Shown in pieces: positions 6,109 through 22,622 of a DNA stretch of 34,452 nt; the stretch's first letter is position 1; each line of letters opens with the position of its first letter. The notes under the pieces are model-generated. The model did not search any database. It was not told the DNA's origin and saw only the letters and a program-made list of their open reading frames with translations. The DNA comes from an uncultured Schlesneria sp. (GTDB taxonomy: Bacteria; Planctomycetota; Planctomycetia; Planctomycetales; Planctomycetaceae): contig CAIOKO010000109.1 of the NCBI GenBank assembly GCA_903858935.1, positions 1-34,452 of the forward strand, given 5' to 3'. The position numbers were made by a program, and so were the translations under genes.

Positions 6109-9100
6109 ATGAGTCATCCAGAAAAGCATCAGGACGCATCTGTATCCCCCGATTTGTCGTTGACAGTATTGGGGATGTTGCCTGAAGACGCCTCTTCCAG
6201 TTCGGTTGGAGACGGATCAGACGCTGGAATTTCGGATGCAGGCGACGGTCGCAACCCCGTTGATGTGTTGGCTGATGAGTATTCGTCACGCCTGCGTGCG
6301 GGTGAAACTCCAACGATCGAAGAGTACGAAATGCGTGCTCCAGATCATCGATCAGCGATCCGAGCATTATTTCCGACGATCGCGATGATTGAAACGATGA
6401 CTAAACAGGCTCATTCTCCGGAAAAAGCGAAGCGACGTCTTTTGTTTGCTCAAGAAACCATCGGTGACTTTCACATCATTCGTGAAGTGGGTCGCGGCGG
6501 GATGGGAATTGTTTATGAAGCCGAACAGCGATCACTTCAGCGCCGCGTGGCACTCAAAGTCCTGGGCACTGGAATATCGAACTCACCTCACCAATTGGAC
6601 CGATTTCGACGTGAGGCCGAGTCTGCCGCGCGACTGCACCATACGAACATCGTGCAGGTCTACGGGATCGGTGACGAGGCCGGAATCTACTTTTATGCCA
6701 TGCAGTTTATCGACGGTATTTCGCTATCGGCCGCGATTGAATCCTACACACGACGAACAGCGGTCGATCCGACCTCAAAAAGCGTTTGGGAACCTTCGAC
6801 GAACGAACTGGCTGTTGCGCAGGGAAATACTGACACGAATCCTGGTCGCAGTTCATCTTCGGAGTTCGCAGGCAATCGGCCAAATGAAACGAAAAATGTG
6901 GCAGCGGGAATTCAAAATAAGAAATCCCGCGATGCGGCTCCAGATTCCATCGGGCCAGATCTGTTTGCCGATGTTAATTCGGCCGAGTTTTTCCGTCGGA
7001 TCGCTCGACTGGCGGCTCAAGTGGCCGACGCCTTGAATTATGCCCATGAACACGGGGTTCTGCATCGGGACATCAAGCCATCAAATTTGATGCTCGATCA
7101 TGCAGGCGACGTCTGGATCATGGATTTTGGTCTCGTGAAAATCATTGAGAGTCAGGATTTAACCAGAACGGGTGAGATTGTTGGAACGCTGCGATACATG
7201 GCTCCGGAGCAATTGAATGGTCAAGCAGATAGAACGACGGATATTTACAGTCTTGGGCTGACGCTTTATGAACTGTTGACGCAAAAGCCAGCGTTTGAGG
7301 GTGCGTCAACGACGATGCTTTCGCAAAGAATGCACGGCGGAGAGATACCACGACCTCGATCGGTCAATCGAGCGATTCCACTCGACCTTGAAACGATTGT
7401 CTTGAAAGCGACAGCGCGCGAACCCTCGGGTCGTTATGCAACGGCAGCGAATCTCGCGGAAGATTTGCGACGTTTTTGCGAAGATCGTCCGATCCTGGCG
7501 CGACGGTCGACCCTTGCCGAGCGGCTTTGGCGGTGGAGTCGACGCAATCCGGCACTCGCCTTTGCCACCAGTTCAGCGATCCTTCTGCTTGGTCTCGTCG
7601 CCGCCGTTGCGACGAGCGGACGATTGCAGGTCGAAGCGGCTCTGCGCGAGGCGAAATCTGCGCAACGGCAGGCAGAATCTAATCTTGATTCTGCGATCAA
7701 TGCGTTTGACAGTATTCTCGATAACGTAACGTCGCGCGGGATTCCTCGATCACTGGCGATTGATATTTCAGAATCAGAAGCGGGGCTGACACAAACTCCG
7801 TTATCCCCTGCGGATGCACTGTTGCTCGACCGGTTGCTCGAGTTCTACCGCGAATTTGCCAATCAGAGTGAAGATAATTCTTCGCGACGTCTTCGGATCG
7901 CGGATGCACATCACCGGGCCGGAACGATTCTTGTCCGATTGGGCCGACTGGCAGAGGCCGAGCAGGATTTTCGTCGGGCGATCGACCTGCTTGCCAATAC
8001 GCCGAAAACCGATCCTCATTATGCTTCGGTAATTGTTCAGTCGGCCTCGCTGTTCAATGAAATTGGTGAATTGCATCTTCGTCGAGGTGAATTTCGAAAA
8101 ACTTCCGATTCGCATCTTGAGGCGCGAGCCCTGTTGCTCGAACAGCCGGATAAAATTAAAGCGGACCCGTCGGTTCGTTTCGAATTGGCGCGTTCAACGG
8201 ATTTACTTGCTTCAATTGACGTTCGGAGTGGAAGTAACGAGGGTCCCGGTGCAATCCAACCCGGGCCTGCAGGTCACGGGCCACCACCACCCGGGCGCGA
8301 GCACCCGTCCCCATTCGGTGACGGACCGCCACCTGAGTTTCATCGGGGCGGTGAGCGTCCGCCTCGAAAGGGGCCGCCTGGTGGTCCATTCGATGAACGC
8401 AAGGATAAGCGGTTGATCAATGCTGAACCGGATGCGCTGAGAAATCGGGGGGTGACGCGGGGCGACCCGCTCTCGACAGTCTTGTTTGAGACCAGCAACG
8501 AATTCCGTTCGTTGTGTCGTGAATTTCCAGAGAAAACGGACTATCAATTCGCACTCGCCCAATGTTTGAGGCATCGGCTGGTTCATGCTGCAACGAGCGG
8601 TGATGCGGCTGTTGCGAGAGAGACGTTTTTGGAAGCGGTCGAAATACTGGATCGCCTGGCAAGCCGTTTTCCGACGGAACCGAAATATCAGTTTGAATTG
8701 GCAGACACGCTGACTCAAGCGTACCGTGCGCAAACGGACGTCGAATCAAGGCTGTCACTTGATCGAGCGATCGCAACTGCGAAGGAACTTGCCGAGCGAT
8801 TTCCGAGTGTTTCCGAGTACCAGTTATTGCTGGGGACCGCTTTGGCACGAAGTGCTGCAATCCATGCAAACAGCGGATCGGAGCGGGACGCAGAAAAATA
8901 TCTGGGGCAATCCATCGAGATTCTGGAAGGCCTGGCTACGAAATTTTCCGATCAAGCGATCATTCAAATTCCACTTGCTAAAACGCGCGAGCAACTGGGG
9001 AACCTGATTCGTACTTCCAGTGAAGGGAATTCCGATCCTTCATTACGACTGAAGCAATCACAGGCTGAGCTGGAAACAGCGATTGAACGATTTGAAACGT

Positions 9101-9270
9101 ACCTCTCGAAGACGCAAAAGCAGGGAAATTTCAACACTGCCACTCGATCCAGCCTCTATTCAAGCCTTGCGGAAACTCTGACTCGACTCGATCTTCCTGT
9201 ACGAGCAGAAGAGGCTCGGCGAAAAGCGGCACGAGAACGACGACCCGGTCCACCACCGCCACCAAAATAA
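6109..9270 (+). CDS. Membrane Ser/Thr protein kinase with C-terminal TPR-like region
   Basis: The 1053-residue protein has an acidic N-terminal region, then a Hanks-type kinase domain (about 120-460). It has the Gly loop GRGGMG (about 128-133), ATP-binding Lys150 (VALKVL), catalytic HRDIKPSN with D321, and DFG with D339. The activation segment ends GTLRYMAPEQ. All key residues are present, so it should be active. About 80 Ser/Asn-rich residues (roughly 213-292) are inserted ahead of the helix leading to HRD. One membrane helix (about 481-503, after NPALAFA) is followed by an extracytoplasmic half of TPR-like helical repeats. A Pro/Gly-rich linker lies at about 709-764 and the C-terminus is poly-Pro. 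Following the sigma gene by 79 bases, it probably senses envelope state and regulates that sigma factor by phosphorylation. Confidence 0.92.
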   Translation: MSHPEKHQDASVSPDLSLTVLGMLPEDASSSSVGDGSDAGISDAGDGRNPVDVLADEYSSRLRAGETPTIEEYEMRAPDHRSAIRALFPTIAMIETMTKQAHSPEKAKRRLLFAQETIGDFHIIREVGRGGMGIVYEAEQRSLQRRVALKVLGTGISNSPHQLDRFRREAESAARLHHTNIVQVYGIGDEAGIYFYAMQFIDGISLSAAIESYTRRTAVDPTSKSVWEPSTNELAVAQGNTDTNPGRSSSSEFAGNRPNETKNVAAGIQNKKSRDAAPDSIGPDLFADVNSAEFFRRIARLAAQVADALNYAHEHGVLHRDIKPSNLMLDHAGDVWIMDFGLVKIIESQDLTRTGEIVGTLRYMAPEQLNGQADRTTDIYSLGLTLYELLTQKPAFEGASTTMLSQRMHGGEIPRPRSVNRAIPLDLETIVLKATAREPSGRYATAANLAEDLRRFCEDRPILARRSTLAERLWRWSRRNPALAFATSSAILLLGLVAAVATSGRLQVEAALREAKSAQRQAESNLDSAINAFDSILDNVTSRGIPRSLAIDISESEAGLTQTPLSPADALLLDRLLEFYREFANQSEDNSSRRLRIADAHHRAGTILVRLGRLAEAEQDFRRAIDLLANTPKTDPHYASVIVQSASLFNEIGELHLRRGEFRKTSDSHLEARALLLEQPDKIKADPSVRFELARSTDLLASIDVRSGSNEGPGAIQPGPAGHGPPPPGREHPSPFGDGPPPEFHRGGERPPRKGPPGGPFDERKDKRLINAEPDALRNRGVTRGDPLSTVLFETSNEFRSLCREFPEKTDYQFALAQCLRHRLVHAATSGDAAVARETFLEAVEILDRLASRFPTEPKYQFELADTLTQAYRAQTDVESRLSLDRAIATAKELAERFPSVSEYQLLLGTALARSAAIHANSGSERDAEKYLGQSIEILEGLATKFSDQAIIQIPLAKTREQLGNLIRTSSEGNSDPSLRLKQSQAELETAIERFETYLSKTQKQGNFNTATRSSLYSSLAETLTRLDLPVRAEEARRKAARERRPGPPPPPK

Positions 9271-14119: not shown

Positions 14120-15042
14120 GGGTCAGTTCTCTTCCATCGCAAAGCGATACGGTGACCGCCCGTATCGCGAAGGTTCCCAGCCCCCGTGCGTAAGGCCAAG
14201 GATTTGGATCACGTTGAAAACGATAGCTTGGTTCATGAAATTACATCGAAGCCAATTCATGCAGACTTGAGTCATCCTTCCTACGCAGGAATAGGCGAAC
14301 AGGTCCACGCAATTCGATTCAAATAAGCCTTAGTTTGTGGTCGTGCTAAGCACAAGCAATTTCCGGTGTCGTCATCGGGAGGGAGAGGCATCACACCACA
14401 AACCGACTTTAGTTGTCGTCCCAAACGTCGGGTTTGGAAGAGTCTTCGACACCCATTCGACCCATTCCGGCCAATTCTGTTACCACACAGACAAGAAAAT
14501 AAGAGAGTTTTTGGCCACTAATGACCGGTATTGACGCTGATAACGCCAAGATGCAGTTGTGGCCACCGCTTTTTCTCAATTTCACAATTCGTGTTTAAGG
14601 CCAGGTCGCTACGAAGCGAGGCCAGGCGCGAACCGGGTTAACGGCCTGGTGACGCCGACGGAGTTTGAGTTATTCAAGTATGCTTCATGGCTGGCCCATC
14701 AACGGGGCGGGCCACCCTTCAGTCCCCTCATTCGGGCCGCGTGAAATCCTGACATTTTGCCCTGCGCTCTCTGCCACAAGTTCTTACCTATGGAGCGACA
14801 AAAATAAGTTCCCTGGTCTCGACAACTTTCTATAAAAACCAGCTAATGTTACCACGAATTAGTTGCTTGGGTTTGATGGCGGAGTTGTTTAGACTCCGTG
14901 TCGCATTCCGGTGTAGATTCGCACCAAGTCACCGTCTTTCAACGCTCCTCAAAAATGTGGGTGGCCGTTTGTGTGCCACCGCGATCGGAAAACAGCGGTC
15001 AGATCTCATCAATATCGATCACGAAATGAGGCAGGTAGCGAA
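14120..15042. other. Long intergenic region upstream of the second kinase
   Basis: These 923 bases carry no convincing gene. The small open frames at 14337-14534 and 14559-14744 have biased composition and overlap hairpins. The region contains a 9-bp inverted repeat (GTTTGTGGT 14333-14341 with ACCACAAAC 14395-14403), a REP-like hairpin cluster (14600-14714) and a small CGGAG/CTCCG hairpin near 14880-14898. Promoters for both flanking divergent genes must lie here. Confidence 0.5.
14600..14714. repeat. Cluster of three short hairpins, REP-like
   Basis: Three inverted repeats follow each other: TCGCT (14606-14610) with AGCGA (14615-14619), CCAGGC (14622-14627) with GCCTGG (14644-14649), and TGGCCC (14692-14697) with GGGCCA (14709-14714). 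GC-rich arms and short loops in a non-coding gap fit a repetitive extragenic palindrome or a structured leader. No U-tract follows, so a terminator is unlikely. Confidence 0.5.
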
Positions 15043-18000
15043 ATGGCGAAGGAACCGGAAACCGAACAGAGAGTCGAGTACCTCCGGCAAGCGCAGGCTG
15101 AAAGCTGGAGAAAGGGAGACTGTGAATCTGTCGAAACGTTGTTCCAACGATTCAGCGAGCAGACCATTACCGACGATCAGGTCTTGAAACTGGTTCTTGG
15201 CGAATGGGAGTTGCGAAAAAATCGTGAGCAGAACCCTACTTTGCAAGAGTATTTCAAGCGATTTCCGCATCTGAAACCTCAGCTCGAAGCATTGCTCGCA
15301 CCTGATTACGCTGCCGTTGGTGAAACGATTATCCCCACAGCTGAGGAGCCTGTCAGGCAAACAGCATCGAACCAGAGACAATTCGGCGACTATGAATTAA
15401 TTCAGGAAATCGCTCGTGGCGGAATGGGAGTCGTTTTTCGTGCCAGGCAAATTAAGCTGAACCGCATCGTCGCGGTCAAAATGATTCTTTCCGGAAGTCT
15501 TGCATCAAGTGACGACGTTCGACGGTTCTATTCAGAAGCCGAAGCGGCGGCGAATCTGGACCATCCAGGAATTGTCGCCATCTATGAAGTTGGCGAGGTC
15601 AACAACCAACATTTTTTTTCGATGGCTTATGTGGAAGGTGAAAGTCTGGCCGCCCGCTGTTCTCAGCGAATAATCCCGGATAAAGAGGCCGCAGAAATCC
15701 TGCGATCAGTTTCGATAGCGGTTCAATACGCCCATCAAAATGGAATAGTCCATCGCGACCTGAAGCCGCAGAATATTTTAATTTCCAAGACGGGAGAGCC
15801 TCGAGTCACTGATTTTGGTTTAGCGAAAACGTTGACTGCCGATGAAGGCCTGACGGCGACGGGACAAGTTCTCGGGACCCCTGGATATATGCCGCCGGAG
15901 CAAGCCTCAGGGCGACTGAAGGATATTGGACCACGTTCCGACGTCTATTCTCTTGGTGCCGTTCTTTACAGCATGCTGGCTGGCCGCCCTCCGTTTCAAG
16001 CCGCGAATGTACTCGAAACATTGAAGCAAGTCGTTGAAAAGGAGCCCGTCGCTCTTCGTAATATGAACCCGTCGGTCAGCCGTGATATCGAGACAATTTG
16101 CCATAAGTGTTTAAATAAAGACCCGAATCAACGGTTTGGTTCGGCCCAGGAACTCGCTGACGAACTTGACCGGTTTCTTCAGGGCATTCCGATCCGATCA
16201 CGGCCGATTTCCGCCTATTCCAAAGTTGTCCGATGGTGTTGGCGAAATCCCCTTGGGGCGGCACTGACCGGAGCCATTTCGCTAGTTCTGGTATTGGTTG
16301 CCGTTGCCGGTTGGATCATGCGCGAGTCAGATCGGGTTCGATACCTTTCCGATGTAAGAAATCAATTTGAAGAACAGCTCGACCGCCCTTCGATTGACAC
16401 CGAGTTTCTCGACCGAGGGGAAGCTTTGTTATCGAAAATCGGGCAAATAAAACCGGAACTCGTCAACTCGGAACGCCAGCGGCTCAATACCGTTTTTGTT
16501 AATAAAATAGAGTCTCTTCTTAAACAACCAAGGTTAACTGACGATGACACGCGGCAGCTGAAAAGTGCCCTCAAGCGGCTGACGACGAGTCAAAAGGATG
16601 AAGCCGATCGATTACAAAAGTCGCTCGACGCACGATTACTGACCTGGCAACCGGTCATCGAGCTTTCGCGGCCGTTTCAAAACATCAGCGAGGTTCTCCC
16701 TGGCACGGCGATCAAGCAGACCGCAGACGGCATGATGCGGATTAGAAATGTTGATGGTTCACAAAGCCCCCCCCTGGCTGAATTCGCCGAGGTGATCGAA
16801 ATAAATCGACCTTTGCAGGGTGGAATTCTCTGTGAAATGGAACTTGGTAACGATTGGTCATCCGCTCAAAACGTAGGGGTTGAATTCCATTACGAAGACA
16901 GCCATCGCTATCAATTTGTCGTTTCAATCGCACGCGCAAAGGCGGAAAGTGTACCTGAGGCTAACGTATCGCTGGATCAGTTTGCGTCGCAGACTCGAGC
17001 AACATTTGCGATCTTGCGAGACAAGACCCTTTTGCGAGAAGGACCGATCGAATTCAATCGGATCGCGAATCAGTCGTTGTTGATTGTTGCCTCTCGAAAG
17101 GACAATTTACTCGAATTTCGAATCGGAAATTCAGGCGGAGTCAAATTCGACGACCCCTTTCCGATTTCTGCCAAGAATTCGGCACGGTGCGCCCTGATAT
17201 GGCCTGAAAACGTCACAATCACGCGACTTACCGTTTCGCGATTCCCGGAGGTCAGCAAAGACAATCCGATGGAGTTTGCCGACGATCTTGTCGTGAAATC
17301 CAATTTCACAGATGCACTTTCGAGATACACGGAGATCGAGCTTAACACAAAAGACGAACAAGTACTTCAAGAAGCCAAGTACAAGCGCGCGATCTGTCTT
17401 TTAAAGATGGACCGATTAGACGAGGCAAAAAGCTTGTTCCAAGAGGTTGGTGTCAAGCAAGGTGAACGTTGGCCGGCGCTGGCATTAATTCAACTCTTAA
17501 TCGCACAGTTGCGCGATTCCGAATTTAATTTCGATAAAGTCGATGAAACATTAGACACAATCGAGATTCGATATAAGCTTGAGCAGCTCATGACAACAAT
17601 TCCTGAATTTGATCGTCAACAGATCATCAAGCTCTATCAGCCACCGGAACGTGGGCGGACGCTGTTCTCTTTGTTTAAAGATCCATTGCGTGTATCGCGC
17701 TGTGAAAAGATGCGATCGCTTGCGAAACTATTTGGTAATCGCCAAGACCAACGTATACGAGATTTAGCGTTGATTCAAGCGGTTTCAGAAGCTGGTGATG
17801 AAACTCGTGTTCAGCCGTTGATTGATAACCTCACCGTGGATATTGAGAATTTCGATTTAATGGACGTTTATTTCACGTCGATGATCAAGCGAGGTCTTGC
17901 TCCTCAAGTGATCCAGTTTGTCGATGAGAAATTAGCATCGCCGACTTTCACTAGTTTTCGCTACTGGATATGGCGAGCTAAAGCACACGCCAACATGGAA

Positions 18001-19077
18001 CAGTGGGAACAGGCCGAATTGGATTTGAAACAACATGAACAGTGGCTCACGAAAGTGATGTCGCTCACGACATCGCATGGCTTGGCGGGATATTATTTTT
18101 ATATGCCGGAAGCGGTATTACTCGAAGGGTTTCTTCGGCTTCGTATTGAAGGTGAAGCGGCGGCCAAGGAATCATGGAGGCGAGGCATCTCTGATGATCC
18201 TCGATTTAAAGAAGAACCATCAAAGACAGGTGAATATTGGATTTTGAAGTCGATTTGCGAAGATTTGTCAGACAGCGATGTCAGTGTGATTTTGGAAAGA
18301 GCGGGAATTTCATCTGCTGCTCCAGGCACGATCCAACAATCACTGAAGAGCCTGTCGGAATCAAAAATCTTCGGAGACATGATGCGAAATCTATTACGGT
18401 CAGAGCATGGAAGAAAGCATGCCGAGAGGTTTGCGATGGGGCAGATTTACCGGTGGGAGGCTCGAAATGGAATTCTTCCAATTGCAATTTACGAAATGAT
18501 TCATCAAGCCGCCTGTAATGGGGTTTTCTCTGAAGAGCAAGATACGATTTGTTGGGAATTGGCAGAGCGAATGATTTATGCCGTTTCACGTGAAGGAACG
18601 ATTCAACTTCCGCAGATCGGACTACTTGGGGTGACGTTTCGGCGCGGCGAGATGGGATTTTTAGGGTGGTCGGGTGTCGCACTTTCTTTGAAGAACGAGG
18701 TGCGGTGGCCCTTTGCTTACTTTCTTTCCCATCGTCTGCTGAATCTCAATAGGGTCAAAGATGCTGAAAATCTGATGAAGTCGGTTGTCAAGAATTGTGA
18801 ACCGGATTCTAAGCTTGGGAAACTCGCGAAGAGTGACCTCGAATTATTAACAAACAATCAAGGGATTTTGATTGTTCAATCCAAAACCGCTAATTCCAAA
18901 TCGCTGCAAATTGTCAAAGACGGCCAGGTGGCTCAAACTGTGATGATCGAAAAGTTGGTCGAAGTTCGAATCGACGCTGGATTGTATCAATTGAAGATGG
19001 AATCTACGGACGGCCAGCTATCGTCTGAGAGCGTTGAAATCAAACTCTGCCAACGAATTCTCGTCGAAGTGAAATGA
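15043..19077 (+). CDS. Very large membrane Ser/Thr kinase with sensor and TPR region
   Basis: The 1344-residue protein starts at ATG 15043 (CAGGT 7-10 bases upstream; the frame is open back to 14971). A helical N-terminal segment (about 1-95, with PTLQEYFKRFPHLKPQLEALL) precedes the kinase domain (about 114-385). It shows GGMG near 126, ATP-binding K146 (VAVKMI), HRDLKPQN with D239, DFG with D257, and GTPGYMPPEQ. All catalytic residues are present. One membrane helix lies at about 404-425. The outer half has a beta-rich segment (about 540-740) resembling a jelly-roll sensory domain. TPR-like helical repeats follow from about 745 to beyond 1150, and the C-terminus is again strand-rich. It likely senses an envelope ligand. 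The FHA-cyclase gene begins 114 bases downstream on the same strand and is the obvious partner. Confidence 0.92.
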   Translation: MAKEPETEQRVEYLRQAQAESWRKGDCESVETLFQRFSEQTITDDQVLKLVLGEWELRKNREQNPTLQEYFKRFPHLKPQLEALLAPDYAAVGETIIPTAEEPVRQTASNQRQFGDYELIQEIARGGMGVVFRARQIKLNRIVAVKMILSGSLASSDDVRRFYSEAEAAANLDHPGIVAIYEVGEVNNQHFFSMAYVEGESLAARCSQRIIPDKEAAEILRSVSIAVQYAHQNGIVHRDLKPQNILISKTGEPRVTDFGLAKTLTADEGLTATGQVLGTPGYMPPEQASGRLKDIGPRSDVYSLGAVLYSMLAGRPPFQAANVLETLKQVVEKEPVALRNMNPSVSRDIETICHKCLNKDPNQRFGSAQELADELDRFLQGIPIRSRPISAYSKVVRWCWRNPLGAALTGAISLVLVLVAVAGWIMRESDRVRYLSDVRNQFEEQLDRPSIDTEFLDRGEALLSKIGQIKPELVNSERQRLNTVFVNKIESLLKQPRLTDDDTRQLKSALKRLTTSQKDEADRLQKSLDARLLTWQPVIELSRPFQNISEVLPGTAIKQTADGMMRIRNVDGSQSPPLAEFAEVIEINRPLQGGILCEMELGNDWSSAQNVGVEFHYEDSHRYQFVVSIARAKAESVPEANVSLDQFASQTRATFAILRDKTLLREGPIEFNRIANQSLLIVASRKDNLLEFRIGNSGGVKFDDPFPISAKNSARCALIWPENVTITRLTVSRFPEVSKDNPMEFADDLVVKSNFTDALSRYTEIELNTKDEQVLQEAKYKRAICLLKMDRLDEAKSLFQEVGVKQGERWPALALIQLLIAQLRDSEFNFDKVDETLDTIEIRYKLEQLMTTIPEFDRQQIIKLYQPPERGRTLFSLFKDPLRVSRCEKMRSLAKLFGNRQDQRIRDLALIQAVSEAGDETRVQPLIDNLTVDIENFDLMDVYFTSMIKRGLAPQVIQFVDEKLASPTFTSFRYWIWRAKAHANMEQWEQAELDLKQHEQWLTKVMSLTTSHGLAGYYFYMPEAVLLEGFLRLRIEGEAAAKESWRRGISDDPRFKEEPSKTGEYWILKSICEDLSDSDVSVILERAGISSAAPGTIQQSLKSLSESKIFGDMMRNLLRSEHGRKHAERFAMGQIYRWEARNGILPIAIYEMIHQAACNGVFSEEQDTICWELAERMIYAVSREGTIQLPQIGLLGVTFRRGEMGFLGWSGVALSLKNEVRWPFAYFLSHRLLNLNRVKDAENLMKSVVKNCEPDSKLGKLAKSDLELLTNNQGILIVQSKTANSKSLQIVKDGQVAQTVMIEKLVEVRIDAGLYQLKMESTDGQLSSESVEIKLCQRILVEVK

Positions 19078-19191
19078 TGATATCGATGACGGCTGTTTTA
19101 TGGGGATGGTGGCCTCGTCGTTGTGACCCACTAATTGTCGTCATTTTTCCTTCACATTAAATGGTTCCATCTGTTTTCGTGAGATCTGCGC

Positions 19192-21078
19192 ATGCCCCGG
19201 CAACTTGTGATCGATGTCATTGAAGGCCCGCATCAGGGGGAAACATTGATTGTCCCTGAAAACGGGTCTCTCCTCGTAGGAAGGCTTCCTCATTGCGGAC
19301 TGTCTCTCCCAACGGATTTAACGGTTTCACGAGAGCATTTTCGGATTGAACTTTCTTCTCAATGGACCTTGGTTCATTTAAGCGACACGCGGTTTACACG
19401 GGTTACTAACAACTCCACTGGATCGACCGTTGAGCTGACGGTCGTTGGCTCGAAGGCTCAACTGAACCCGGGCGACGATATCTTGTTTGGGCTCTTAAGT
19501 GTGATTCGTGTCAGATGTGAAATGGACTCCTCGCAACGAGTTCCTCCACTTCACGACATCGCCACCGCGATGCCCAACCAATATGTCGCCGTTACGGGTG
19601 ATGACGGCCAGAAATTCGAATCGTCACCGCCGATTCCGCAATTCTTCAAAGCGGACATTCGCACCCACGAAAGAATCGACTCGATCGTGAATTCGGAATC
19701 ACTGGGTGCTTCGATTCGGAATTTTAATTCTGAAAACATGTTCGATCGATTAGGAAAGCTCGTATCTGTGATGCAACAGGCTGCGTCGACGGCAGACTTC
19801 GCGAAAGACATCGCAACAGCGGCATTGGAGATGGTGCAACTCGATCGAGCCGCCGTGTTGGCTTATAACGGATCGTCCTGGTCAACCGTCGCTCTCGCCG
19901 AACAACGTCTGATCACTTCCGAGTCTAACTGGCAACCAAGTCAAAAGCTTCTTAACCAATTGGTACGTGATCGGAAGACTTTATCCGGAAAACCCGGCAA
20001 GATTACCGCTGCTTCGTCAGCGAGTATGTCTAATCTGGTGGCCGTGGTGGCGGTCCCGGTGTTCGATCTTAATGAGAATATTATTGGCGCGGTCTACGGT
20101 GATCGACGAATTGACCTGAACCGACCGCAGATCGATCGCATTGATACGAAGTTGATTGAAATCATGGCTTGCGGCGTCGCTGGCGGTTGGGCACGAATCG
20201 AACAAGAGCAGGCATCTTTGGCACGAAGAGTCCAGTTGGAAAGATTCGTCACCAAGGAAATTGCTCGCCGGCTTGAGGAAGACCCCGACGTATTAAATGG
20301 GAAATATGCCGAGGTCACTCTGTTATTCTGCGACATTGCCGGTTTTAGCCGAATCTCAGAAAAATTAACTTCGAAGAAGGTGTTTGAATGGATTAACGCC
20401 GTCATGGAAGAGTTAACACGCTGTGTCCTGGCAACGAATGGGACGCTGGTTGACTATGTTGGGGATGAACTCATTGCGATGTGGGGGGCCCCTTTAGCCA
20501 CAGAAAACCACGCCGCTGCGGCTGCCGAAACTGCCCAAATGATGGTCAGGGCGCTGAAAAAACTTAATGAGGAGCTTGTGTTGCCGCCGGGGGAGACGAC
20601 ACAGGTTGGTATCGGTTTGAATTCTGGCTCAGTACAAGTCGGGAACACGGGATCGAATCACAAAATGAAATATGGACCGCTTGGTTCGCCGGTCAACATC
20701 GCCAGTCGAGTGCAAGGTGCGACCCGTTACCTTAAAACGCCGACCCTCATTACAGGGGAAACAGCTGCACTTCTCGGCGATCAATTCAATACACGACGAC
20801 TTTGTTCTGTGCGACTTAAGAATATTGACACACCGATAGATCTTTTCGAATTGAGGGCTGATCCTGAGCCATCGTGGGGGGATCTCCTCTTGCAATATGA
20901 ATCGGCGTTAGAGTCATGGGAGTCGTTGGATTTACAGGCCGCGCTCACCTCGCTGATCCAGCTTGCATCACAGTTTAATGGTGACGGCCCAACCATGGTA
21001 CTCCTTTCTCGGGCGGTCGAGAATTGGTCACAGCAACGGGAAATTTATGATCCCGTGTGGACGTTGCCTACTAAATAG
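19192..21078 (+). CDS. FHA-GAF-class III nucleotide cyclase
   Basis: The 628-residue soluble protein has an FHA domain (about 5-105) with the phosphothreonine-reading residues G30-R31 and S46-R47-x-H49. A GAF-type sensor follows (about 184-330) and then a class III cyclase domain (about 370-560). The metal-binding Asp residues are present: D381 in LFCDIAGFS and D425 in YVGDELIAMWG. The transition-state pair N502/R506 in VNIASR is also present. The substrate-selecting position four before D425, normally Lys in adenylate cyclases, is D421, and the partner position seven before N502 is G495. Product identity is therefore open. About 50 helical residues end the protein. It follows the kinase by 114 bases, so a phosphorylated kinase or substrate may recruit it through FHA. 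Confidence 0.9.
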   Translation: MPRQLVIDVIEGPHQGETLIVPENGSLLVGRLPHCGLSLPTDLTVSREHFRIELSSQWTLVHLSDTRFTRVTNNSTGSTVELTVVGSKAQLNPGDDILFGLLSVIRVRCEMDSSQRVPPLHDIATAMPNQYVAVTGDDGQKFESSPPIPQFFKADIRTHERIDSIVNSESLGASIRNFNSENMFDRLGKLVSVMQQAASTADFAKDIATAALEMVQLDRAAVLAYNGSSWSTVALAEQRLITSESNWQPSQKLLNQLVRDRKTLSGKPGKITAASSASMSNLVAVVAVPVFDLNENIIGAVYGDRRIDLNRPQIDRIDTKLIEIMACGVAGGWARIEQEQASLARRVQLERFVTKEIARRLEEDPDVLNGKYAEVTLLFCDIAGFSRISEKLTSKKVFEWINAVMEELTRCVLATNGTLVDYVGDELIAMWGAPLATENHAAAAAETAQMMVRALKKLNEELVLPPGETTQVGIGLNSGSVQVGNTGSNHKMKYGPLGSPVNIASRVQGATRYLKTPTLITGETAALLGDQFNTRRLCSVRLKNIDTPIDLFELRADPEPSWGDLLLQYESALESWESLDLQAALTSLIQLASQFNGDGPTMVLLSRAVENWSQQREIYDPVWTLPTK

Positions 21079-21452
21079 CCGCAGAAAAAGTAGAGACATT
21101 TGAAACTACTTTAAGTGGATGCGGTACGACTTATCAATCCGTAAATCAAATCCAGCAACATTGAGGTCGTTGCGCCATCATGTTCCAGATCTCTTAATTC
21201 CATGGCGAAGCATTCGCGAAACCCTGTTGAAACTCACATTCGTTGAATTGTTTGTGGCAGGAACGGAATCGGATCCGTCGTCTCTCATTAACAATAACAA
21301 TGCAAATCGCATGGAAATTGCGATTCGAACAGAACGGTTTGACACGCGGGTTGGTGCCGCCGACGTCTGCGGGTTAAACGAGAAATTCGTGTATTCCGTA
21401 TTTTGCTTCTAAAACTCCGTTGTGACGGAAGCACAAAAACTTTTATTGCCGT
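21079..21452. other. Gap between convergent genes
   Basis: These 374 bases lie between the ends of the cyclase and DUF4432 genes. A weak hairpin (AAAGTAG 21087-21093 with CTACTTT 21106-21112) follows the cyclase stop but has no U-tract. The 97-codon plus-strand frame at 21119-21412 has no recognisable domain and is probably not a gene. I see nothing else. Confidence 0.4.
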
Positions 21453-22622
21453 CTATTTGCCGGAAAGTCGGGGGACGGTCTCGCGATGGATTGTGGGGAC
21501 GGTTGTTCCCTGGATGTGGTTGATTCTGTCCTGGATCTGGCGGACGGATTCGAGAGTGTCGGCGACTTCGAGTGCAAGTTCGCTGCGATAGGAATGGCCG
21601 GGCTGAATCTTTGGCAAACGGCCTTGCTGACGTTCGGTCGCTCGGAAGTTTGGAAAATTGATGCCGGGTTCCAAGCCTGTTACGTAACCGTCCGCTTCGG
21701 CAACGGTGTTTTTCCAGACGGTAAACGTTGGTAACTGACGGGTCTGGAAATGGACGGCAAAACCGGCATGGCCGCTTGAATTCGCCAACAGGGCCGTTGA
21801 CCAGCCGTCGGCTCCGCCGAGTGGCGTATGGAAATAGGCTTGTTCAGCAAACCCTGCAACGGGTGCTCCATAGATGTTGTAGTTGTCGATTCCTTCTGCG
21901 GCACGAGGATCGCGCGGGGCGACTTCGACACTTGGTACCGAATAGGATGCGTAGGGTTCGAGAAATGGTCTGCCGATATTGATGTGATAGAGCAGCGAAA
22001 GTTCGGCGGGTTGGCCTCCGAGATTGGTGATGTCATCAACGATTGAACAGCGATTCGACCCGGCTTCCAGGCGGAATGTGGACGTCATCCTCCATCGTGG
22101 TCCGAACATCGAACATTCGTCGACAATCCCTCGAACCTCGAGTGAGCCTGCTCCAGATGTGTCGACTTTGATCTCAACTCGATGAGCTGGCGTATTAGCG
22201 ATTCGGCCATGGAGAGTTAGTTTTTCACCTTGATCGTCGCCCGGTGGGCCGTTAAAGCCCAGTCCGCAGCGACAGAGAAGTTCGTTGAAACCATGTAACC
22301 AGCCGAGGCCGCCTCGATCAAGTTGATTGACGAACGAAGGATGAACGGGTCTTTCGACGGGCGATTTCCACTCCAGCGGCAGATCGTGGTATCTCCCCTT
22401 CCAGATTCCCATTCCGCGCGTGGGAAGAATGGAGAGCGACAGGTGGCCATTGTCCAGTTCAACAACGTCAACACCCTCAGAAACGCCTCCACGTAAGGTT
22501 CGCCATCGAATGGACCAATTTGGCGAGCCTGGTAATTCCAACAAGCCGTTTGGTCGCAGCTCGCCATGATCAAGATGAACTCCCGCGTCCGCGTCCGTCA
22601 AAACAAGCGTCTGGATCGTCAT
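21453..22622 (-). CDS. DUF4432 family protein, aldose-1-epimerase-like fold
   Basis: The 389-residue protein has the features of DUF4432, a beta-sandwich group in the galactose-mutarotase superfamily. These include an early strand-rich region with LSILPTRGMGIWKGRY, then WLHGFNELLCRCGLGFNGPP, TLHGRIANTPAHRVEI, LLYHINIGRP, and VTGLEPGINFPN near the end. The family binds sugars, and His and Glu residues in the pocket could support mutarotation or isomerisation, but its reaction is not settled. The start is ATG 22622; no signal peptide is visible, so it is probably cytoplasmic. It diverges from the GT2 gene across a 252-base region containing a long palindrome. The length is normal for the family. 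Confidence 0.85.
   Translation of the reverse strand: MTIQTLVLTDADAGVHLDHGELRPNGLLELPGSPNWSIRWRTLRGGVSEGVDVVELDNGHLSLSILPTRGMGIWKGRYHDLPLEWKSPVERPVHPSFVNQLDRGGLGWLHGFNELLCRCGLGFNGPPGDDQGEKLTLHGRIANTPAHRVEIKVDTSGAGSLEVRGIVDECSMFGPRWRMTSTFRLEAGSNRCSIVDDITNLGGQPAELSLLYHINIGRPFLEPYASYSVPSVEVAPRDPRAAEGIDNYNIYGAPVAGFAEQAYFHTPLGGADGWSTALLANSSGHAGFAVHFQTRQLPTFTVWKNTVAEADGYVTGLEPGINFPNFRATERQQGRLPKIQPGHSYRSELALEVADTLESVRQIQDRINHIQGTTVPTIHRETVPRLSGK

Follow-up and report, generated by a model that had tools for sequence, protein, structure and literature searches.

The window, a stretch of 34,452 nucleotides from an uncultured Schlesneria sp. (contig C109), encodes a protein in which an FHA domain and a GAF domain precede a class III cyclase domain. 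The gene follows that of a protein kinase on the same strand, and the features at the locus are:

14971..19077, + strand: Ser/Thr protein kinase gene, a possible partner (PF00069, 189.6 bits), ending 114 bp before the cyclase gene
19192..21078, + strand: CDS of 628 aa with an ATG start, FHA-GAF-class III cyclase with a C-terminal helical tail
19273..19491, + strand: FHA domain, residues 28-100 (Pfam PF00498, 26.4 bits against a cut-off of 20.7)
19699..20226, + strand: GAF domain region, residues 170-345 as modelled (model and Foldseek; PF01590 in relatives)
20137..20241, + strand: long signalling helix, residues 316-350 (secondary structure of the AlphaFold2 model)
20293..20868, + strand: class III cyclase catalytic domain, residues 368-559
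20875..21075, + strand: three-helix C-terminal tail (model), residues 562-628, whose last residue is an invariant Lys

A promoter and terminator scan of positions 18900-21500 returned sites no more numerous than in shuffles. FHA domains provide a phosphothreonine input and GAF domains a small-ligand input. Both had been proposed in an earlier note made from the sequence alone; the Pfam score confirmed the FHA domain, and the GAF domain was supported by its modelled fold. Pfam called no GAF family in the window cyclase's own sequence, but in a Foldseek search the AlphaFold2 model of residues 170-345 (mean pLDDT 88.5) matched best to the GAF domain 3cit (E 9.7e-08), and in alignment A2 PF01590 was matched by 23 of 71 members. 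The catalytic domain matched PF00211 at residues 371-543 with 66.6 bits (cut-off 21.9); this domain and its fold, together with the metal-binding Asp pair and the Asn/Arg pair, place the protein among class III nucleotide cyclases. The note had also called it an unusual signalling protein, which is right for the FHA domain, found at a Pfam E of 0.01 in only 2 of the 71 aligned members, this one included, but not for the rest of the architecture, as GAF-cyclase relatives are common in the phylum. A paralogue in the same genome (L001, contig C106) has no Pfam-recognised FHA domain. PF00072 receiver domains were matched in 5 of the 71 aligned members; in two proteins (L029 and L031) with the same catalytic triad as the window cyclase, an N-terminal response-regulator receiver domain replaces the FHA-GAF region. 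D598 and K628, the last residue of the tail, are invariant in all 71 members, those with receiver domains included.

Alignment of the window cyclase with Cya2 and CyaC assigned the following active-site residues, for which conservation is given over the 118 rows of the clade defined below:

20332..20334, + strand: D381, metal-binding Asp (alignment; D in 118/118)
20452..20454, + strand: D421, base-selecting position 1 (alignment; D in 106/118)
20464..20466, + strand: D425, metal-binding Asp (alignment; D in 118/118)
20467..20469, + strand: E426, clade-typical acid next after the second metal Asp (E in 95/118)
20668..20670, + strand: K493, coupled to D421 (K in 106/106 D421 rows and 0/12 others)
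20674..20676, + strand: G495, base-selecting position 2 (G in 115 and S in 3 of 118; Gly in Cya2 too)
20695..20697, + strand: N502, ribose/transition-state Asn (alignment; N in 116/118)
20707..20709, + strand: R506, transition-state Arg (alignment; R in 118/118)

Position 421 is Lys in adenylyl cyclases and Glu in guanylyl cyclases, and position 495 is the one taken by Asp, Thr or Cys. The earlier reading of intact metal and transition-state residues, with Asp at the first base-selecting position and Gly at the second, was thus reproduced. An alignment placing Lys and Asp/Thr at these two positions, the canonical adenylyl pattern, was looked for because the note had named it as the result that would speak against its reading; D421 and G495 were found instead. 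The canonical guanylyl Glu421 is likewise absent from the window cyclase and occurs in 5 of the 118 clade rows. Guanylyl-type features, a basic residue 493 and a small residue or Cys at 495, are present as K493 and G495, as they are in Cya2. The non-canonical pocket is therefore real, but K493 had been missed, and the Gly at position 495 is not without parallel, as an E-G base-selecting pair is reported for Cya2 (PMC4215837).

A family search with the window cyclase gave a match in 167 of 170 genomes, ordinary Lys-type cyclases included, and a first genome-contig scan with the window protein as single query gave none. A scan of named genomes used a pattern including DY[IV]GD, which favours D421, and the best 80 of 296 relatives were kept. 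Within these 80, the nearest relatives were Schlesneria MAGs; judging by titles, 76 came from what we take to be planctomycete genera and 4 were labelled 'bacterium' only. The cultured carriers include Lacipirellula limnantheis I41, Thalassoglobus neptunius KOR42 and Adhaeretor mobilis HG15A2. Where match lists were long, the loci were drawn from among the matches listed and only fetched loci were counted. Pooling gave 237 rows, reduced to 178 by a 95% identity filter. Residues 421/495 were D/G in 109 of the 178, K/T in 41, E/G in 6 (Cya2 among these), D/T in 6, C/G in 4, D/S in 3, K/S in 3, S/T in 2, and N/G, T/G, A/S and S/G in 1 each. The 118-row clade set, from which K421 rows, Cya2 and one A421 row (L145) were excluded by definition, had D421 in 106 rows, E in 5, C in 4 and N, T and S in 1 each. 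The pattern scan contributed 58 of these rows (57 with D421, 1 with N421), and the 60 rows from other searches, free of the pattern, had D in 49, E in 5, C in 4 and T and S in 1 each. Among the matches listed, the Glu421 rows belonged to seven genomes sharing the genus code g61. A plasmid search gave 464 records, and the three fetched among those listed were K-type with Ser495. Viral spread was rejected, as no relative came up in a scan of viral contigs. A lone mutation in one gene was also rejected, because many members of a large clade share D421 and G495. Searches of one open-access library listed no paper on this planctomycete clade, which is no proof of absence; it is a conserved and apparently uncharacterised clade of class III cyclases with a charge-swapped pocket.

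This conservation bears on whether the domain works at all. The earlier note had allowed for a degenerate sensor; a related reading is a catalytically dead domain serving as a dimerising or nucleotide-sensing module alone. The non-canonical pocket would fit such a role, as would the loss of Lys543, a residue present in 32 of the 44 Lys-type rows and replaced by Val in 87 of the 118 clade rows. The window cyclase itself, however, keeps both K543 and R541, and 175 of the 178 non-redundant rows in the full alignment of cyclases retain the metal Asp pair together with the Asn and the Arg. With D421 in 106 and G495 in 115 of the 118 clade rows, decay is unlikely. We therefore rejected a decayed pseudo-enzyme, found the degenerate-sensor idea poorly supported and regard a dead domain of any kind as very improbable. 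Catalytic activity of the window cyclase is, conversely, highly probable.

Position 493 followed position 421 closely. K493 is present in all 106 D421 rows of the clade and absent from the remaining 12, of which those with C, S or T421 have His and those with N or E421 have Met. The 44 Lys-type rows have D (22), E (11), N (6), S (4) or A (1) at 493. Over columns 372-555, normalised mutual information with 421 was highest at 493, both within the clade (0.856, the runner-up 0.376) and across the 178 rows (0.594, the runner-up 0.460). On a quick tree, the clade required three changes at each of 421 and 493, and the perfect association means that changes at the two positions coincide. In a test by independent pairs, a single pair fell on branches with good support and three when every branch was allowed, numbers too small to reach significance. 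Uncoupled rows occurred outside the clade: two (L165 and L166) combine D421 with T or A493, one (L145) is A421-K493, and two are S421-D493. As judged from the alignment, the charge pair of the pocket is swapped and not lost, from K421 with a mostly acidic 493 to D421 with K493.

We built a careful tree of 107 rows, thinned from the 178 with 3 long or odd rows dropped and with columns 421, 493 and 495 left out. Its bootstrap was not fully settled, and the support values are to be read accordingly: Cya2 was placed within the Lys-type clade with 100/98 support, and the D421 clade enclosed the Glu421 rows (99/97). The window clade of this tree (64 rows) contained no K421 row. A close tie by descent between the window cyclase and Cya2 was therefore rejected, and on this tree a proven guanylyl cyclase acquired its acid-Lys-Gly pocket independently. 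The nesting of the Glu421 rows indicates that Asp was replaced by Glu within the clade, where K493 was lost to Met.

Comparison with enzymes of known specificity suggested a direction for the pocket. The triad at 421-493-495 is D-K-G in the window cyclase, E-K-G in the Synechocystis guanylyl cyclase Cya2 (PDB 2w01; in fusion 6fht) and K-D-T in the Spirulina adenylyl cyclase CyaC (PDB 1wc0-1wc6). Cya2 also differs in its input, being described with CHASE2 and a membrane region (PMC5995499) where the window protein has FHA-GAF. Eukaryotic guanylyl cyclases (sGC beta1, RhGC and the receptor enzymes) share with the window cyclase an acid at 421, a base at 493 and a non-acid at 495, but have Glu-Arg-Cys in place of Asp-Lys-Gly and other regulatory domains. 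GC-C and ANP receptor chains have R493 and C495, and Glu is reported at 421 in both (PMC2576301, PMC3591389). With the same charge sign at each position, the D421-K493-G495 triad most resembles that of guanylyl cyclases, as far as sequence comparison can tell. The earlier suggestion of another nucleotide or relaxed specificity is in this respect possible, though the closest triads belong to guanylyl cyclases. We propose that the window protein is a working class III cyclase with FHA and GAF input that prefers GTP and produces cGMP, a reading to which we give about an even chance of being right; the preference for GTP, taken by itself, is equally balanced.

In the proposed mechanism, the enzyme would be soluble and homodimeric, and phosphothreonine binding by the FHA domain and small-ligand binding by the GAF domain would act through the long helix on the catalytic domain; both dimerisation and control by these domains are presumed. 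D421 would take the part of the guanylyl-cyclase Glu and bind guanine at its N1/N2 edge, K493 would hold D421 and partly neutralise its charge, and the small G495 would leave space for the base. These three contributions together would make GTP the preferred substrate and cGMP the product. In RhGC with GTP, Glu is reported to make the sole base-specific bond, the second residue perhaps serving shape (PMC7384201), and the K101E/D157G substitutions in Ma1120 raised guanylyl cyclase activity (PMC4215837). Other observations count against a preference for GTP. Asp is shorter than Glu, and the natural Glu421 rows carry Met, not Lys, at 493. A Tyr in Cya2 is thought to serve the guanine amino group (PMC4886424); the window cyclase has Ser505 at this position (Tyr505 in Cya2), and Ser is found there in 117 of the 118 clade rows. 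In Rv1625c, replacing the equivalents of 421/493/495 (KFD) by ERC, an attempted switch from ATP to GTP, gave an inactive monomer, and F363R alone lowered activity 3000-fold; a guanylyl-like triad is thus not sufficient (PMC4174876). More generally, motif logic has exceptions: XC_0250, a proven guanylyl cyclase, is described as being without the Asn/Arg pair altogether (PMC3770947).

The swapped charge pair could equally be read in favour of ATP, since K493 binding adenine is allowed by the same pocket. If the enzyme were an adenylyl cyclase whose lysine has been relocated, K493 would make the adenine contact, D421 would position it, and ATP would be converted to cAMP. The counts are those expected of a pair that was exchanged, with K421 and D, E, N or S493 in 43 of the 44 Lys-type rows against D421-K493 in 106 of the 118 clade rows. 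In the Rv1625c F363R structure, the side chain at 493 is in contact with the Lys421 backbone and forms a pair with Asp495, which makes 421 and 493 neighbours and puts 493 at the pocket (PMC4174876). Yet Cya2 has K493 and is a guanylyl cyclase, and its E488K variant, which puts Lys at 421, is reported to shift it to ATP (PMC5995499). G495 moreover lacks a side chain with which the adenine amino group could interact, and K493 was lost in the Glu421 subclade. We consider a relocated lysine unlikely.

In a third reading, the pocket would have its own specificity, either relaxed among purines or directed at a pyrimidine nucleotide, with E426 assisting near the metal. E426 occurs in 95 of the 118 clade rows against 1 of the 44 Lys-type rows, and ATP and GTP are reported to bind Cya2 about equally (PMC4215837). 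The PADLOC models of the Pycsar cyclase PycC, which shares the class III domain, also matched the window cyclase (best 67.4 bits). Five ordinary Lys-type cyclases scored higher on the same model (89.8-107.3 bits), so the match is not specific. Counting by offset from the metal Asp, residues F60, K104 and F109 described for AnPycC (PMC11224242) correspond to F379, V423 and I428; F379 is also usual in Lys-type rows (43/44). A neighbouring CNB effector, expected of PycC, was looked for, and no CNB protein was found on contig C109. On these scores and this neighbourhood, membership of Pycsar on the strength of the PADLOC match was rejected. A specificity of its own for the pocket is improbable on this evidence, and we give the same low weight to the wider idea that the planctomycete clade evolved a D421-K493-G495 plus E426 pocket of neither classic adenylyl nor classic guanylyl specificity that feeds CNB-domain receptors. 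The GDE motif that includes E426 recalls GGDEF; the Pfam GGDEF family matches 47 of the 71 aligned members weakly, and Lys-type enzymes have Ala or Gly at 426.

Genes next to related cyclases were examined for receivers and breakers of the product. CNB open reading frames lie within 60 bp of 5 of the 80 named related loci (L042, L044, L052, L053 and L083). A planctomycete sister clade with the motif DFQGD, present in the same genome (L003 and L244), resembles the window cyclase in having D421, K493 in 10 of 12 rows and G or T495, and differs in forming a separate clade (100/100) with A426, A477 and F497. In the DFQGD/DFLGD sister clade, a class II phosphodiesterase adjoins 4 of 20 loci, all of one genus, and an MscS-CNB channel 5 of 20. 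Together, the CNB and phosphodiesterase neighbours suggest that D421-type enzymes make a cyclic nucleotide, without naming its base, and they add to the arguments against a dead domain. Within the window, phmmer found no CNB domain, and the 10 PF00027 matches of the genome were all on contigs other than C109. The phosphate-binding cassettes of the neighbouring CNB proteins and of those in the window genome include both R-S-A and R-T-A, a mixture that does not distinguish a cAMP from a cGMP type.

Proven bacterial guanylyl cyclases are few. Base choice by class III cyclases is debated, and the published accounts that we draw on disagree on what the second residue contributes. A large clade in which the charges are naturally swapped, and in which Glu, Cys, Ser, Thr or Asn variants occur at the key position, would make base selection testable on native enzymes and not on impaired mutants, and would reveal the messenger in use in these Planctomycetes. 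Were the pocket to have a specificity of its own, much of planctomycete cyclic-nucleotide signalling would run on an undescribed type of enzyme.

Kinase open reading frames were found within 500 bp of 16 of the 80 named related loci (the best 80 of 296), with 6 more at 1.0-4.3 kb; the other 64 have no kinase neighbour within 500 bp, many flanks being cut. Across the 7.9 Mb of the window genome, the kinase domain was matched 51 times. Kinase adjacency looks enriched, with the reservation that the loci are related and many flanks are cut. A second kinase-like open reading frame lies at positions 6109-9270 of the window; its kinase match falls in two pieces (6469-6753 and 6997-7323) within one open frame.

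The CNB neighbours are of two kinds. Three are large proteins that combine a CNB domain with a ferredoxin-like Cys motif, recognised by eye (L042:7548-10361, L053:7414-9936 and L083:7351-9879), and stand tail to tail with the cyclase gene, 18-58 bp apart. The other two are small proteins directly upstream on the same strand with two apparent membrane helices (L044:4573-5421 and L052:4520-5377), possibly co-transcribed receptors. The window genome encodes a second FHA-cyclase, which belongs to the DFQGD clade (L244:684-5059, contig C164). A class II cyclic-nucleotide phosphodiesterase gene lies 26 bp upstream of it on the same strand and an MscS-CNB channel gene is convergent with it, an arrangement of maker, breaker and receiver that was also seen in three congeneric genomes (L258-L260).
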